The translations under genes were made by a program, and so were the position numbers. DNA of 32,641 nt from Desulfurococcales archaeon. Its GTDB lineage: Archaea; Thermoproteota; Thermoprotei_A; Sulfolobales; Acidilobaceae. Positions 8,593-15,511 of the stretch are shown here, piece by piece. The DNA lies in contig WAOS01000024.1 of NCBI GenBank assembly GCA_015521185.1, positions 1 through 32,641 on the forward strand, read 5' to 3'. Within the stretch, counting starts at the first letter, position 1. Each line of letters starts with the position of its first letter. Below the pieces are notes generated by a model that saw nothing but the letters and a program-made list of their open reading frames with translations, did no database searches and was not told where the DNA came from.

Positions 8593-9627
8593 ATGAAGAC
8601 TAGCCTGCTGGCAGGCCTCGTAGCGTCCCTCTTACTAGCAAGCGCGGGGCTAGGCCTAGTCGCTTTGGGCTCGCAAAGCGGATCCCTCGAGACACAAGCG
8701 TTTGCCAGCCTATTCCAAGTCCAGAGGTGGAACCCTCCGGATTACCCAGGAGTGATGGGCGTAAAATACACGGTCTACAACTCCGAGGGAGAAGAAAAAT
8801 TCAGCTGCACCATAGGGCTCCCAGTCTACAAGGTTAGGCACTACAAGGTCGAGGTTCCCAGTCCCTTCGAGCCCGGAAGCGACAACCCGAGAATAAAAGC
8901 GTACACCTACGTAACTGAGGTCTACTATTACCTCCTCGTCCCCTGGCACTGCGTTAACGACAGCTATCCCTACGCGTACCAGCCTGACAGCAGCGGCTAC
9001 CTCGTGTCGAGCGAGATATCCTACAAGTTCCCCGTGACGTGGGAAAGCGACTCCTACAAGCCCGTGGACGCCGCCCTCCTCTTAGTAGAGACGAAGACTC
9101 AGGGAAGCATGTTCGGCTATCCCCCGCCGCCACCACCCGAAAAATACACCAACAAGATATTCAAGCCTTGGTACTCGGCATCATGCGACGACTACGGCCC
9201 GGACAACATAACGTTCACCGGCTTCGAGTCCAAATCAGAACTAATAGACCACTACAACAACAATGATACCTTCTACAAGTCGGGAATGGCTACAGGGCTA
9301 ACACGCTCAGAAATAAGTGATTCCTGGGAGGAGTTATGGGGCTTTAATTATGTAGCGTATTATCTGGGTAGTGATAAGAGTAAGTGGGCGTATGGAGTAC
9401 CGTTTGTCCTAGACTATCCTGGCGTCTGCGGAGTGAACGAGACGTTCGCCGAGCCCGGGGACAGCGGCTCCCCGGTATACATATGGTCTTTGAGTGAGAA
9501 CGCCTACCAAGTTGTAGGGCTGGTTTCAGGGGCACATGACGACATAGTGTTCATCGTGCCATTACAGCTCGTCCTTAATGATTACAGGAACTTGACGGGG
9601 AGCTATCTCTACCTGTATACTGGCTAG
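8593..9627 (+). CDS. Secreted chymotrypsin-fold (PA clan) serine protease, putative
   Basis: Signal peptide MKTSLLAGLVASLLLASAGLGLVALG; VPWHCVN (His119), PVDAALLLVE (Asp159), EPGDSGSPVYIW (Ser291) followed by VVGLVSG; six-Pro loop; several Cys. Confidence 0.72.
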   Translation: MKTSLLAGLVASLLLASAGLGLVALGSQSGSLETQAFASLFQVQRWNPPDYPGVMGVKYTVYNSEGEEKFSCTIGLPVYKVRHYKVEVPSPFEPGSDNPRIKAYTYVTEVYYYLLVPWHCVNDSYPYAYQPDSSGYLVSSEISYKFPVTWESDSYKPVDAALLLVETKTQGSMFGYPPPPPPEKYTNKIFKPWYSASCDDYGPDNITFTGFESKSELIDHYNNNDTFYKSGMATGLTRSEISDSWEELWGFNYVAYYLGSDKSKWAYGVPFVLDYPGVCGVNETFAEPGDSGSPVYIWSLSENAYQVVGLVSGAHDDIVFIVPLQLVLNDYRNLTGSYLYLYTG

Positions 9628-9640
9628 GGGGTGTGCTGGT

Positions 9641-10609
9641 ATGAGTGGTATGGTAGGGTTTAGGGGGCTTGTGCCCCTGGCGGTTGCCGTGTTACTCGTT
9701 CTAGTGGTGGCTGCCGCCCCTCTAAGCGCGGCCGCGTCCAGCGTAAGCGTGGCTAAGTACTCGAGCCTTATAAAGCAGGCCGGCCAAGGCAAGGGAGACC
9801 TACACCACCAAGAGCTAGCCTACTATGAGACAAACGTTTGCGGAGCCCGCATAGTGTATGTTATAGATTGGGGCGTATTGGCGACCTTTGGATACAAAGA
9901 ACTACCGCGCCCCACTCATGTTGCCGAGAGCATTTATAACGAGGTAAGGGCGAAGGCCGGTGGGAGCGCTCTAGAGTATATCTATGGTATACAGGCGTTG
10001 AAAAATGATAATGATGAGAGGCTTATTGTAGTGTTTGTTAGGCCCGACACACCCAGGCACGTGCTCGATGTTATCGGGGAGGCCCTCGAGAAGGCAGCGA
10101 AGGACGCAGGGGTGAGAGGGCTAATAGTTATCAACGACCTGCAGAGCGGGGACATCGATGCTCTCAAGGATGCTTGGCCCGCTCTTCGGGAGGCTAGCAT
10201 ACGTCTGGCGAACAGCAGTGATACCCGCAAGCTCGGGATTAGGTGGCTGGAGCCATACATGACAAAGCTGGGCTTCGTGAGCCTTGTAGTGATATGGGAG
10301 CCCGGCAAGGGCCCGACCCCACAGGTGATCAACGCGCTAGCTGAGAAGCTCCTCCGCGAGACCGGGCTCTGCGGCAAGAACATCACAATAGTGATAACAG
10401 AGCCCGTCGTAGCAGAGCCCCTTGTGCCGGGGCAAGCCCAGAGCAGTAGCGGCTCAACAGGCGGGGCCATGGATGCAGACGCTCCCAGCCCGGGCCAGGC
10501 TGGAGGGCCCGGAAGCGTGGAGAGAGCCTCAGCCTCCCTCCCAACGATAGGTCTAACTCTCCTAGTAATGGGCCTAGCGGTCGCCCTAACACTATACCTC
10601 CGCCACTAG
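9641..10609 (+). CDS. Secreted, C-terminally membrane-anchored protein, putative partner of the upstream protease
   Basis: N-terminal signal/TM, alpha/beta-like body, Ser/Gly/Pro-rich linker, C-terminal TM PTIGLTLLVMGLAVALTLYLRH; 13 bp downstream of the protease stop. Confidence 0.65.
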   Translation: MSGMVGFRGLVPLAVAVLLVLVVAAAPLSAAASSVSVAKYSSLIKQAGQGKGDLHHQELAYYETNVCGARIVYVIDWGVLATFGYKELPRPTHVAESIYNEVRAKAGGSALEYIYGIQALKNDNDERLIVVFVRPDTPRHVLDVIGEALEKAAKDAGVRGLIVINDLQSGDIDALKDAWPALREASIRLANSSDTRKLGIRWLEPYMTKLGFVSLVVIWEPGKGPTPQVINALAEKLLRETGLCGKNITIVITEPVVAEPLVPGQAQSSSGSTGGAMDADAPSPGQAGGPGSVERASASLPTIGLTLLVMGLAVALTLYLRH

Positions 10610-10641: not shown

Positions 10642-10896
10642 TTAGCACTCCTGCTGGGGAGTATTCTCCAGAAGCTTCCCGGCCAGGAGTAGTGCCGCTA
10701 CAATGAGGGGCTCTAGGGGGTCTTCTAGGGGGACGAAGCGGTAGGCGTCTAGCACCCGGTATACTTCCTTGATGGCGCGCTCGAGAGCCCTCCTATCCTC
10801 GGGGTCTCTCAGCCTGGCTGAGAACCGGCCGAGCCTGTCTAGCTCTTTCTCTACAAGTAGTCTGTAAGGGGGCGCTGTCCTGCCCATGCCTGCCAC
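10642..10896 (-). CDS. Small conserved-looking protein downstream of the RadA-like gene
   Basis: 84 aa helical LEKELDRLGRFSARLRDPEDRRALERAIKEVYRVLDAYR-type composition; overlaps 3' end of upstream gene, start may be ATG slightly downstream. Confidence 0.6.
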   Translation of the reverse strand: MAGMGRTAPPYRLLVEKELDRLGRFSARLRDPEDRRALERAIKEVYRVLDAYRFVPLEDPLEPLIVAALLLAGKLLENTPQQEC

Positions 10897-11516
10897 CCCA
10901 GCTCTATGCTAGAGATGTAGCTGTTCCGGGGCGTGGGCCTCCAGGGATGCTTCACTAGCTCCGCCCTAGCACCTCTCCTCCAGGTCTCGAGCCTCACTAT
11001 TACGTGCGCGCTGTGAGCGTGGAGGCTCCCCCCTCTGGGCACCCTCTTGCCGTGTGGCGAGGGCTGGTTGAACACTAGTACTGTCACGCCTCGCTGGGAG
11101 GCCTTGCGGAGGCTTCCAGCGACGACCGTGTTCCTCCAGGCCTCCCGAGGGTTCTCGGGCGCGTACATGTAGGGGTGCCTCACAACTATTGTTTCGGCCC
11201 CGAGCGATGATGCCTCATCTACCAGGCCGGGCACGTCTTGATGGCGGAAGGCGCGTGCCACGAGGATCCTGCTTCCTGGTACGCCCCTAAGCCTCATGAG
11301 CCTGTTCAGCCTGTAGGGGTCCAGCCCTCCGAAGTCCTGAACAATCACAACAGCCACGCGGCCCCGCGTGGCGGCCTCTATTATCGCTCGATGCATGACG
11401 GGGCTGACAATACTCCACGGACCGCTGATATCAATTATCCACCCGCTCCTGTACGGGCACACGAGAAGGTCTATCCCGGCTATCCCCGTGAGCCTGCATC
11501 CCATCCCAGACCCCAC
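10851..11516 (-). CDS. RecA-superfamily RadA paralog with degenerate Walker A/B (probably ATPase-dead)
   Basis: RadA-like body SRILVARAFRHQDVPGLVDEASSLGAETIVVRHPY...TVLVFNQPSPHGKRVPRGGSLHAHSAHVIVRLETWRRGARAELVKHPWRPT; Walker A position reads ISGPWSIVSP instead of GxxGxGKT. Confidence 0.7.
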   Translation of the reverse strand: MGSGMGCRLTGIAGIDLLVCPYRSGWIIDISGPWSIVSPVMHRAIIEAATRGRVAVVIVQDFGGLDPYRLNRLMRLRGVPGSRILVARAFRHQDVPGLVDEASSLGAETIVVRHPYMYAPENPREAWRNTVVAGSLRKASQRGVTVLVFNQPSPHGKRVPRGGSLHAHSAHVIVRLETWRRGARAELVKHPWRPTPRNSYISSIELGWQAWAGQRPLTDYL

Positions 11517-11700
11517 GACATTATCGTTGTCTCTCAGATATGCGGGCTTCCGTAACGCAGCTATTGGGAAGGGGCTCTCTGGAAGTTCCGCGGGGGATCG
11601 TAGAAGAGCCGGCGGGCACCCCCCGGGCCGGTAGGGCTGTAACGGTCTCGGAGAGTATTCCTGGAGGGCCTACACTCTCCCTTCTAACCGGTGGAGGGTC

Positions 11701-13662
11701 TTGGAGGGGCTCCTCCTCGACGCCCAAATCGGGCGAGAAGGCCTCGAGCTAGTGCTCGCGGGCCCGGGAGGCCTACACACCACTACTCTCAAGACCGACT
11801 ACAGAGTGTACCTCCTACCCAACCGCTACAGGGCCTCGAGCATAATGGAGAACGCGTGGAGCGCTGGCCTGGATGCCTGGGTCGAGGAGTGGAGGAGGCC
11901 CCCCTGGTATGACAGCTCGGTGAAGATCGTCGTAGTCTCCCACTCAGACCCCAGAGTGATCAGAGCGTTCGCTGCCGCCGCTGAGAGGGAGGGGGCGGCC
12001 TCGAAGGTGAACACTTATCCCGGGATGCTCGTTGATGCCCTCTGGAGGGCTGGCGCTAGGCCGGGATGCATCTTCAGCGAGGGCGAGCCTCCTGACTGCG
12101 AGGGTGCTCTCCCACCGCCGGTCCGCGTGGCTCGTCTACGCGCTTACGCGTGGCACGGGCCCGTCTCTAGCGTGCACGACGAGGCTCTCTACTACGTTGT
12201 GGAGTGCAGGCGAGACAGGGTAATCCTTAGGAGCGCGAGCGAAGCGGTCGACCGCCTCGAAGAGTGCAGACCCCACATAATTGAGGCCAGGCTCGAGGAC
12301 GTGCACAGCCTCCCCCGGGAGCCCCCTGGCCTCCGGCTGGACCCGGAGAGGAGCCTCGTCAGCGCTAGAGGTATGCTAGAGTGGATGCGGGTCTCCTGGC
12401 TCCCCTGGAGCATGGCCCACCAGGCCCCCATAGGGAAAATACTCACCGCCGCCGAGGCCAGGGAGGCCTTCGAGAGGAAGTACCTGGTACGCGCGGAGGA
12501 GCCCCGCCGCGAGGCCTTCAGGCCTCTCGAGCAGCTCGCCGCAGCAGACATGGCTGGGGCCGCCAGGATCCCAAGCCCCGGCACCTACTGGAATGTCTCA
12601 CAGCTAGACTTCACAAGCCTATACCCGACGCTCATAAGCAAGCACAACCTCAGCGCCGAGACCGTTGCCCGACCAGTCCCCTGCGGGGGCGAGACGTGCC
12701 CGGCTGGCCACAGGGTCTGCTCGAGCCCCCGCGGCATAGTAGCTAGCGTTCTCGGCAGGCTTGTGGAGATGAGGGCGCGCTACAAGAGGCAGGGCCTCCT
12801 CGAGGAGGCGGAGGCGCTGAAATGGGTGCTAGTGTCGGGCTTCGGCTACCTCGGCTATAGGAACAGCCTGTTCGGCAGCATAGCAGCGTACGAGTGCGTT
12901 ACGAGTCTAGCGAGGCAGGCTCTGGCCACGGCGGAAGAAGTAGCTGAGAGGCTCGGCTACAGGGTTGTGCACAGCATTATAGACAGCATTATGATTGAGC
13001 CGAGAGCCCCGAGGGCCAGCCCGAGGGAGGTCGCCGAGGAGATCGGTAGGAGGGTGGGCGTGCCGGTCCGCGTCGACGCAGAGTACGACTGGCTCTATAT
13101 ACCCGAGACCCTCCGCGGCGCCGGCGCGGTCAACAAGTACTACGGGAGGCTCCGCGGGGGCAGGATCAAGATGAGGGGGATAGCGGCGGTCCGCCGCGAC
13201 ACGCCGCCCCTCATAGCTATGGCTCAGGCCGCGGCCATCCGGGCTCTAGCGAGCGCTAGGAGCCCGCGGGATATGCCCGAGGCGCTCAAGACTGCTAGGG
13301 AGATAATCATGGAGACCGCGAGACTCGTCGCGGAGGGCCGCGCGAGCCCCGCGCTCCTAGCCATATCAAAGAGGCCCTCCTCCACGGGAAGGAGGACCCC
13401 CTGGGCCAGGGCTTCAAAAGGAATGAACGTGGACACTGTAAAGTACGTGATGACGCCCCACGGCCCGTGGCCTGTCTGGCGAGGGCCTCCGCCCCTAACC
13501 GATAGGAACTACTACTTGAGGCTCCTAGCCGCTGCCGCGAGAGAGCTCCCTCCCGGGGCCAGGCCCCAGCCGGTGAGAACCAAGATAATAATGAGGAGCA
13601 GCCCAGTGGCTCACCACGAAAGAGGTGTCACATGGCGTTGGCCGGAAAGCTCCTCAGCGTAG
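11701..13662 (+). CDS. polB2: B-family DNA polymerase, divergent PolB2-like
   Basis: Motif A QLDFTSLYPTLISKHNLS (Asp303); motif B-like LKWVLVSGFGYLGYRNS; motif C HSIIDSIMIE (Asp428, DTDS replaced by IIDS); no recognisable exonuclease DxE; TTG start with ggtggag upstream. Confidence 0.82.
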   Translation: MEGLLLDAQIGREGLELVLAGPGGLHTTTLKTDYRVYLLPNRYRASSIMENAWSAGLDAWVEEWRRPPWYDSSVKIVVVSHSDPRVIRAFAAAAEREGAASKVNTYPGMLVDALWRAGARPGCIFSEGEPPDCEGALPPPVRVARLRAYAWHGPVSSVHDEALYYVVECRRDRVILRSASEAVDRLEECRPHIIEARLEDVHSLPREPPGLRLDPERSLVSARGMLEWMRVSWLPWSMAHQAPIGKILTAAEAREAFERKYLVRAEEPRREAFRPLEQLAAADMAGAARIPSPGTYWNVSQLDFTSLYPTLISKHNLSAETVARPVPCGGETCPAGHRVCSSPRGIVASVLGRLVEMRARYKRQGLLEEAEALKWVLVSGFGYLGYRNSLFGSIAAYECVTSLARQALATAEEVAERLGYRVVHSIIDSIMIEPRAPRASPREVAEEIGRRVGVPVRVDAEYDWLYIPETLRGAGAVNKYYGRLRGGRIKMRGIAAVRRDTPPLIAMAQAAAIRALASARSPRDMPEALKTAREIIMETARLVAEGRASPALLAISKRPSSTGRRTPWARASKGMNVDTVKYVMTPHGPWPVWRGPPPLTDRNYYLRLLAAAARELPPGARPQPVRTKIIMRSSPVAHHERGVTWRWPESSSA

Positions 13663-15511
13663 ACGAAGTCCTCCGCCTCTCCCGGATCGCATCGCTAAGG
13701 GCGGAGCCCGGTGGGAAGCTGGCCTTCACCGTCTCCAGGCCGGACCCCGAGTCGAACAAAGACGTCGCAGAGCTAGTAGTGCTCGGCCAGGCCGGTGTAG
13801 AGGCCTCCTACGCGGAGGCCGGAAGCCCCGCGTGGGGGCCGGAAGGGAGGCTAGCATTCTCCTCCCGCAGGGGTGCAGGCGAGAAGGAGAAGGGCTCGGG
13901 CGTCTACACCCTCCCGCCGGGCCTGCGCGGGGAGCCTAGGAGGGTCGCCTGGCTCAGGCACGGAGTGTGGGGGCTCGAGTGGCTGGATGATGAGAGGCTA
14001 GTCGCCGGGAGCAGCGTGCCCGAGGGCTGGATGTACGATGATGATGGCGACTACGTCGCGACCCGGAGGCTCCCACTCTGGTTCGACGGGCAGGGGCTTG
14101 TCGCCGGAAGGACGAGACAGCTCTTCCTCTTAGAGGAGTGGAGCGGTAGAACAGTAAAGCTCACGAGCGAGCCGTACGGAGTATCAAGCTATGCAGCATG
14201 CGATGGGAACATCTACTACGCCACCCCGATGGACTGGAGGAACCCAACGGCTCACAGGGTGAAGCTGATTACACGAGGGGGAGAGGAGCGGACCGTCGCG
14301 GAGGACCTACACGTCTCCTCGATAGCCTGCCACGCCCGGGGTACCGCTATAGCGCTCGCCCATAAGGGAGAGATAGGGATAGCGAGCCACAACCGCCTCT
14401 ACCTGCTGACGCCGGACGGCCACGAGTGCCTATCCTGCGGGAGTCTAGACCGGAACATATGGGGGGCTAGTAGCGATGGCGACACTATCTATATGATCGT
14501 AGCTAGTGGTGGGCGGACGCCTGTTTACGCGTTCGAGCCGGACCGGTCCGGGCTGAGGAAGGAGTACGAGGACGATATCGTCGCGAGGGCTATAGCCGCC
14601 TATAGAGGTGGTGTCGCACTAATCGCCTCCTCCCCCACGGTGCCGCCCGAAGTGTACAGGCTCGAGGGGGGCGCCCTGCATAAGGCTACGAGCTACAACT
14701 CGTGGATAAGCGAGTACAGCCTCTCCAAGCCTAGGAAGATCACTATTGAAAGCATGGGCGACACCGTTGAGGGCTGGTCCTCCTGCCTCCCGAGGGAGCG
14801 CCGAGGAGGGAGAGGATGCCTCTAGCCCTCTTCATCCACGGGGGCCCGAAGGGAATGTACGGCTACGGGTTCCATTATGAGATGCAGCTCTTCGCGTCCC
14901 AGGGCTTCATAGTGGCGTACGCGAACCCGCGCGGCAGCGACGGCTACTCGGAGGAGTTCGCCGACATAAGGGGGAGGTACGGAGTAGACGATTACAAGCA
15001 GCTCATGGACTTTCTCGATAGGGTTGTCGAGGAGTATCCTGTCGACAGGGAGAGGATGATGGTCACGGGAATAAGCTACGGAGGGTACATGACTAACCAC
15101 ATAATCACTATGACCGACAGGTTCAGCGCCGCGGTGAGCGAGAACGGCATTGCTGACTGGATATCTGACTACTGGGCCTCCGACGTGGGCTACTGGTTCG
15201 ATCCCGACCAGATAGGGGGTACCCCCCTCGACAGCATGGAGAACTATGTCCGAGCGAGCCCTGCATATAGGGCGGACCGCGTGAAGACCCCAGTACTTAT
15301 CATACACAGCATGGAGGACTACAGGTGCTTCATAGACCAGGCCCTAGCAATGCATACCTCCCTCTCAGTCCTGGGCAAGGACTCAACACTCCTCGTATTC
15401 ACCAGGGGTAGCCACGGGCACAGTGTGCTCGCTAGCCCGAGGCAGAGGAGGAAGAGGCTTGAGATCAAGCTCCGCTGGGTAAAGGAGAAGATGCGCCTCG
15501 GCAACCAATAG
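13632..15511 (+). pseudogene. S9 family acylaminoacyl-peptidase, split by an apparent frameshift near 14777
   Basis: ORF 13632..14825 (propeller) and ORF 14816..15511 (LFIHGGPKG, GISYGGYMTNH, HSMEDYRC, GSHGHS) together align with the intact 653-aa paralog at 27910..29871; inserting one G restores ...VEGWVLLPPEGAPRRERMPLALFIHGGPKG. Confidence 0.85.

Follow-up and report, generated by a model that had tools for sequence, protein, structure and literature searches.

The window considered here, the whole stretch of DNA analysed, is a 32.6-kb contig (60% GC) from the genome, 77% complete, of a thermophilic archaeon. It carries a family-B DNA polymerase gene and, divergently oriented, a gene for a RadA-like protein that is overlapped by a small ORF. 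The three ORFs are confirmed as orthologues of PolB2, iRadA and PPB2 (arCOG07300), the components of the archaeal PolB2 mutasome. The first-pass annotation had proposed such a mutasome from a PolB2-like polymerase beside an ATPase-dead RadA-like gene, and family placement, fold and co-occurrence support the proposal, for a system that is not itself new. The features of the locus, each with its basis in parentheses, are:

10642–10887, minus strand: PPB2 (arCOG07300-like), an 81-aa helical protein with an MGRT N-terminus (arm conservation; PPB2 description in PMC11791011)
10851–10887, minus strand: 37-nt out-of-frame overlap of iRadA and PPB2 (both frames read)
10851–11516, minus strand: iRadA, a RadA/Rad51-fold protein of 221 aa (model, Foldseek, 23 aligned orthologues)
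10854–10877, minus strand: PIP-box-like motif QRPLTDYL at the iRadA C-terminus, putative PCNA binding (sequence, orthologue alignment)
11400–11423, minus strand: GPWSIVSP of iRadA, where Walker A would stand (alignment of 23 orthologues)
11517–11700, no strand: 184-bp intergenic region separating the divergent starts of iRadA and polB2 (sequence)
11701–13662, plus strand: polB2, TTG start, encoding a 653-aa family-B DNA polymerase that belongs to the PolB2 group (Pfam, alignment, tree, model)
12430–12459, plus strand: IGKILTAAEA, PolB2 segment preceding the D(K/R) site (alignment of 18 orthologues)
12547–12558, plus strand: DMAG replacing D(K/R)GG (YxGGA region), an Aeropyrum-type variant (PolB2 motif comparison)
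12607–12609, plus strand: D303, catalytic Asp of motif A (QLDFTSLYP) (invariant among 18 orthologues)
12820–12855, plus strand: motif B, KWVLVSGFGYLG (standard PolB2 form)
12982–12984, plus strand: D428, second Asp of motif C (HSIIDS), with Ile at the first Asp (invariant among 18 orthologues)

Both transcription units, iRadA-PPB2 leftwards and polB2 rightwards, would start from the 184-bp intergenic region, which has a GC content of 61%. Neither a clear TATA box nor the damage-response hexamer ANTTTC (Orc1-2-type) was found in it on either strand. An Rfam search of the window gave no match. On one side of the locus, two adjoining plus-strand ORFs of 344 and 322 aa (8593–10609) have no Pfam match and, judging by their hydrophobic N-termini, apparently encode secreted or membrane-anchored proteins. 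On the other side, an S9-family (prolyl oligopeptidase) gene (13632–15511, plus strand) is apparently split into two overlapping ORFs, probably by a frameshift or sequencing error, and the first of these shares 31 nt with the 3' end of polB2.

The polymerase and its altered motifs

The TTG start of polB2 at 11701 agrees with the aligned N-termini of its orthologues (xGLLLDA). The protein matches Pfam DNA_pol_B (E 2e-15); among NCBIfam families an archaeal type-B polymerase scores best (NF004416, E 9e-64, below the cut-off of that family), and the AlphaFold model of the protein (pLDDT 87) matches archaeal PolB structures in a structure search. In a tree of 85 sequences that included 14 PolB1 and PolB3 proteins, the polymerase falls within PolB2, as had been anticipated, beside its Acidilobaceae relatives; the PolB1 and PolB3 of the same genome, which keep an intact YGDTD, are placed away from it.

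The catalytic residues noted at first sight, the motif A Asp (D303) and the second motif C Asp (D428), are invariant in the alignment of 18 orthologues, together with K374, D283 and, in motif B, FGYLG. The first DxD Asp, which is Ile in the window, is Ile or Leu in every aligned orthologue from the same order, so its loss is a feature of the group; the PolB2 of Sulfolobus islandicus has the same IID in motif C (PMC11791011). Motif B had been described as lost, and the KxxxNSxYG consensus is indeed altered, but K374, F381 (replacing Tyr) and G382 still align, and the segment conforms to the standard PolB2 form KW(I/V/L)LV(A/S)xFGYLG. A Pfam search with the sequence found no exonuclease domain at E<=1, in keeping with the earlier failure to see an exonuclease motif.

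These changes bear on whether the enzyme is a polymerase at all. It might be catalytically dead, a structural or regulatory subunit that partners iRadA and PPB2, for instance at stalled forks or in replication initiation. The lost first Asp, the altered motif B and the additional DMAG change would fit this, and the authors who described the three-gene association in 2014 proposed inactivation of PolB2 with a repair or regulatory role (PMC4104785). However, neither D303 nor D428 varies across the family, as selection for catalysis would give, and Dpo2 of S. islandicus, whose motif C also reads IID, is an active and robust polymerase that lacks an exonuclease and extends mismatched and lesion-containing termini (PMC8764526). 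A dead PolB2 is therefore improbable. Dpo2 is also damage-inducible and needed for targeted mutagenesis (PMC7390963); the first-pass annotation was accurate in calling Sulfolobales Dpo2 inducible (PMC7390963, PMC8764526). By analogy with such relatives, the window system would be expected to show polymerase activity, lesion extension, complex formation and induction by damage. Its PolB2, with no proofreading and an altered motif C, would extend mismatched or lesion-containing primer ends.

The D(K/R) motif that characterises the PolB2 group is changed here: the Asp is kept (D283) and is followed by Met. Nearly all other PolB2 proteins have D-R or D-K at this site, and D-M or D-L is restricted to the clade of the window, which includes the likely Aeropyrum loci, and to loci L038 and L080. 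An altered YxGGA region and motif A have been reported for Aeropyrum PolB2, which was set apart as mPolB2 (PMC7390963), so the deviation is a published group variant and no bar to PolB2 membership. PolB2 has further been proposed as a marker of low-GC crenarchaea (PMC7390963); its presence in the window contig and in other high-GC loci adds exceptions to that proposal. Two interrupted copies were seen among the loci surveyed. In an Aeropyrum sp. MAG (L049, 4104–6137), polB2 is in two pieces that lie on opposite strands, and iRadA stands on that contig at a distance of about 20 kb, which points to either a rearranged pseudogene or a misassembly; in another Desulfurococcales MAG (L072, 4670–6632), polB2 lies in two overlapping frames.

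The DMAG variant may be considered together with the complement of bypass polymerases. A search of 48 genomes from the family to which the window belongs, 25 of them at least 90% complete, yielded no Y-family polymerase (IMS domain, PF00817), and control genomes were positive. As judged from gene content, PolB2 is thus the only evident candidate for a lesion-bypass polymerase in the family, which makes the family well suited to asking whether translesion synthesis is within the reach of a PolB2 complex by itself. In such a background the mPolB2 clade might have shifted from extender to inserter and extender, with DMAG reflecting the shift, a refinement compatible with the mutasome reading. The lack of Y-family enzymes and the limitation of DM and DL to this clade and its neighbours L038 and L080 speak for it. 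On the other hand, many family genomes without a Y-family polymerase also lack PolB2, so that PolB2 bypass is not essential there or another route exists, and the D(K/R) site has been assigned to contact with the PPB2 arm and not to catalysis (PMC11791011). On balance such a shift seems unlikely.

iRadA, PPB2 and their shared bases

The divergent ORF with GPWSIVSP in place of Walker A is present as described, and a P-loop (GxxxxGK[ST]) occurs in none of 23 aligned iRadA orthologues. The designation RadA-like was borne out by fold and hardly by sequence: the best profile match to RadA has an E-value of 0.0012, and a phmmer search against PDB sequences returned nothing useful (E 0.26), but the AlphaFold model (pLDDT 88.8, pTM 0.87) matches RAD51, DMC1 and RadA structures in Foldseek, including RAD51 filaments, with E-values down to 9e-14 and a TM-score over the query of about 0.77. 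The predicted structure therefore firmly places iRadA in the RadA/Rad51 fold. The N-terminal domain is missing; this trait and the dead Walker A are both given for iRadA in PMC11791011. The genome itself yielded no RadA (PF08423), which is present in three congeners, and an assembly gap is probably responsible.

Near the C-terminus of iRadA, QRPLTDYL aligns with GQRPLEEYL, VQRRLTEWL and similar tails in orthologues, following the pattern QxxLxx[YW][LI], and clamp-binding motifs have been reported for iRadA (PMC11791011). The PolB2-iRadA-PPB2 complex was modelled in 2025, with a PolB2 region that is proposed to mimic the Rad51/RadA oligomerisation motif bound to iRadA and a PPB2 trimer engaged through one MGRT arm (PMC11791011). 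In the window PolB2, I244, G245, L248 and E252 of IGKILTAAEA (IGxxLxxxE) are invariant across 18 aligned orthologues, and we infer that this segment, which lies in the corresponding region, is the proposed mimic itself. By analogy with that model, iRadA, a RadA fold unable to bind ATP, would dock on PolB2 through the oligomerisation mimic, and the PPB2 trimer would reach with one of its MGRT arms into the cleft that PolB2, iRadA and DNA leave between them. The putative PIP-like C-terminal motif of iRadA probably brings the complex to PCNA.

The small ORF overlapping the RadA-like gene had been correctly recognised, but not its start, which is most plausibly ATG at 10887 and not GTG at 10896, giving 81 aa and the MGRT N-terminus common to the orthologues. 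An [MVL]GR[TSN] arm is kept in all aligned PPB2 orthologues. PPB2 also matched methanogenesis proteins in Pfam and NCBIfam (E 5e-4, below cut-offs), but these matches were put down to helix composition and rejected.

In the window, the shared 37 nt encode WAGQRPLTDYL* of iRadA and MGRTAPPYRLL of PPB2, and translation of PPB2 would be coupled to that of iRadA through them. The two genes overlap in 21 loci (12 once PPB2s more than 70% identical are collapsed); the length is 37, 40 or 49 nt, in every case 1 mod 3 and hence with the same relative frame. The Thr codon of MGRT together with the next base gives the motif Gln of iRadA, and ATG or GTG as codon 10 of PPB2 gives the Trp of EWL-type tails; PPB2 position 10 is Met in 11 of the 21 overlapping loci and in 0 of 33 others. 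Related iRadA tails such as RTLIDWI and KTLLEWT occur at loci without overlap, so the clamp-like motif is no mere by-product of it, and three loci (L038, L080, L078) have the overlap with a degenerate iRadA tail. Synonymous-codon conservation is 0.47 in the overlap and 0.43 in the rest of the gene, compared with 0.32 and 0.38 in controls without overlap, and codon-specific Fisher tests on the collapsed loci gave p 0.014 and 0.051; these statistics are weak and only suggestive of a dual constraint. The overlap goes unmentioned in the main text of PMC11791011. We tentatively propose that in many crenarchaeal mutasomes the same 37–49 bases lock the iRadA clamp tail and the PPB2 MGRT arm together, so that the two co-evolve, and that the variant mutasome would be the sole lesion-bypass polymerase in this family, where no Y-family enzyme was found; this is possible, with the balance somewhat against it. 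The overlap would in any case tie clamp binding to complex assembly in a simple way that can be tested.

Co-occurrence and gene order

Across the window's genome and its relatives, PolB2 and iRadA occur together in 49 genomes, PolB2 alone in 2, iRadA alone in 1 and neither in 95 (Fisher p 2e-35, a descriptive value since the genomes are related). The three exceptions are incomplete drafts (63–76% complete). The locus is missing from many complete relatives and is thus dispensable. A survey of 74 loci (65 records, the window and 8 further genomes) showed iRadA and PPB2 conserved with PolB2 across archaea, and the link of PolB2 to inactive RecA-like genes given in the first-pass annotation is correct (PMC4104785, PMC11791011).

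Among these loci, 32 have iRadA-PPB2-PolB2 in one direction with both partners found, and 7, mostly from Sulfolobaceae, have PPB2-PolB2-iRadA. Both partners lie opposite PolB2 with PPB2 nearer in 4, iRadA alone is opposite in another 4, and a few loci have other layouts. An intact iRadA-PPB2 pair inverted head-to-head with PolB2 was found at two loci, the window and its congener L035 (an Acidilobaceae archaeon); a third member of the genus (L034, a Desulfurococcales archaeon) has the three genes co-directional. Among the genes compared, these three are the only neighbours common to the window and L034/L035. The orientation of iRadA has changed at least five times on the tree by parsimony, and one inversion common to the window and L035 was weakly disfavoured (p-AU 0.029, for a group named after the data had been seen).

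Divergent transcription could suggest that polB2 and the iRadA-PPB2 pair are chance neighbours with no functional relation, as could two Thermodiscus drafts (L036, L037) with iRadA on a separate contig from polB2. Against this stand the near-perfect co-occurrence of PolB2 and iRadA and their linkage across many lineages despite otherwise different neighbourhoods, and we consider an unrelated pair a negligible prospect; chance as the origin of the three-gene observation is excluded by conservation over dozens of genomes. Orientation and context vary within one genus and the genes stay together, which supports a functional unit. The three mutasome genes are co-oriented only "in most cases" (PMC11791011), so a divergent layout does not exclude membership. 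Counted against the mutasome reading are the clade's DMAG in place of D[K/R]GG, the divergent, non-operon layout, the damage-response promoter motif not found and the dispensability of the locus; with these weighed, the three genes very probably encode an archaeal PolB2 mutasome of known kind, here extended to a divergently transcribed form. No description was found of the iRadA-PPB2 inversion or of the out-of-frame overlap; the rest of the system is already known.

Comparison with known systems

With the PolB2 mutasomes of Sulfolobales, other archaea and bacteria, the locus shares all three components, the MGRT arm, the dead Walker A, the IID motif C, the lack of a recognisable exonuclease domain and the PIP-like C-terminus of iRadA. 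It differs in the inversion of iRadA-PPB2 relative to PolB2 and in DMAG for D(K/R)GG. Its PolB2 exceeds the 555 aa of S. islandicus Dpo2 by about 100 aa, and the Sulfolobaceae loci surveyed, with their PPB2-PolB2-iRadA order, have no overlap, unlike the 37 nt of the window. The locus is also close to Aeropyrum pernix mPolB2 (PMC7390963), which shares the clade, the altered YxGGA region (DMPG, compared with DMAG) and a high-GC genome. Two likely Aeropyrum loci (L008, L010) have the same 37-nt iRadA-PPB2 overlap; they differ in being co-directional (iRadA-PPB2-PolB2), with a PolB2 about 50% identical to that of the window.

The authors of the 2025 study liken the PolB2 mutasome to bacterial Pol V (UmuC-UmuD'2-RecA), which by analogy also joins a translesion polymerase, a RecA-fold partner and a small subunit with an N-terminal arm (PMC11791011). 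Pol V differs in its Y-family polymerase and active RecA, and neither its polymerase nor its small subunit is homologous to those of the PolB2 system. The bacterial ImuA-ImuB-DnaE2 system combines a RecA-like accessory protein, an error-prone polymerase and an adaptor. The resemblance to it drawn in the first-pass annotation holds as an analogy and not as homology, since DnaE2 is a C-family polymerase and ImuB an inactive Y-family protein.
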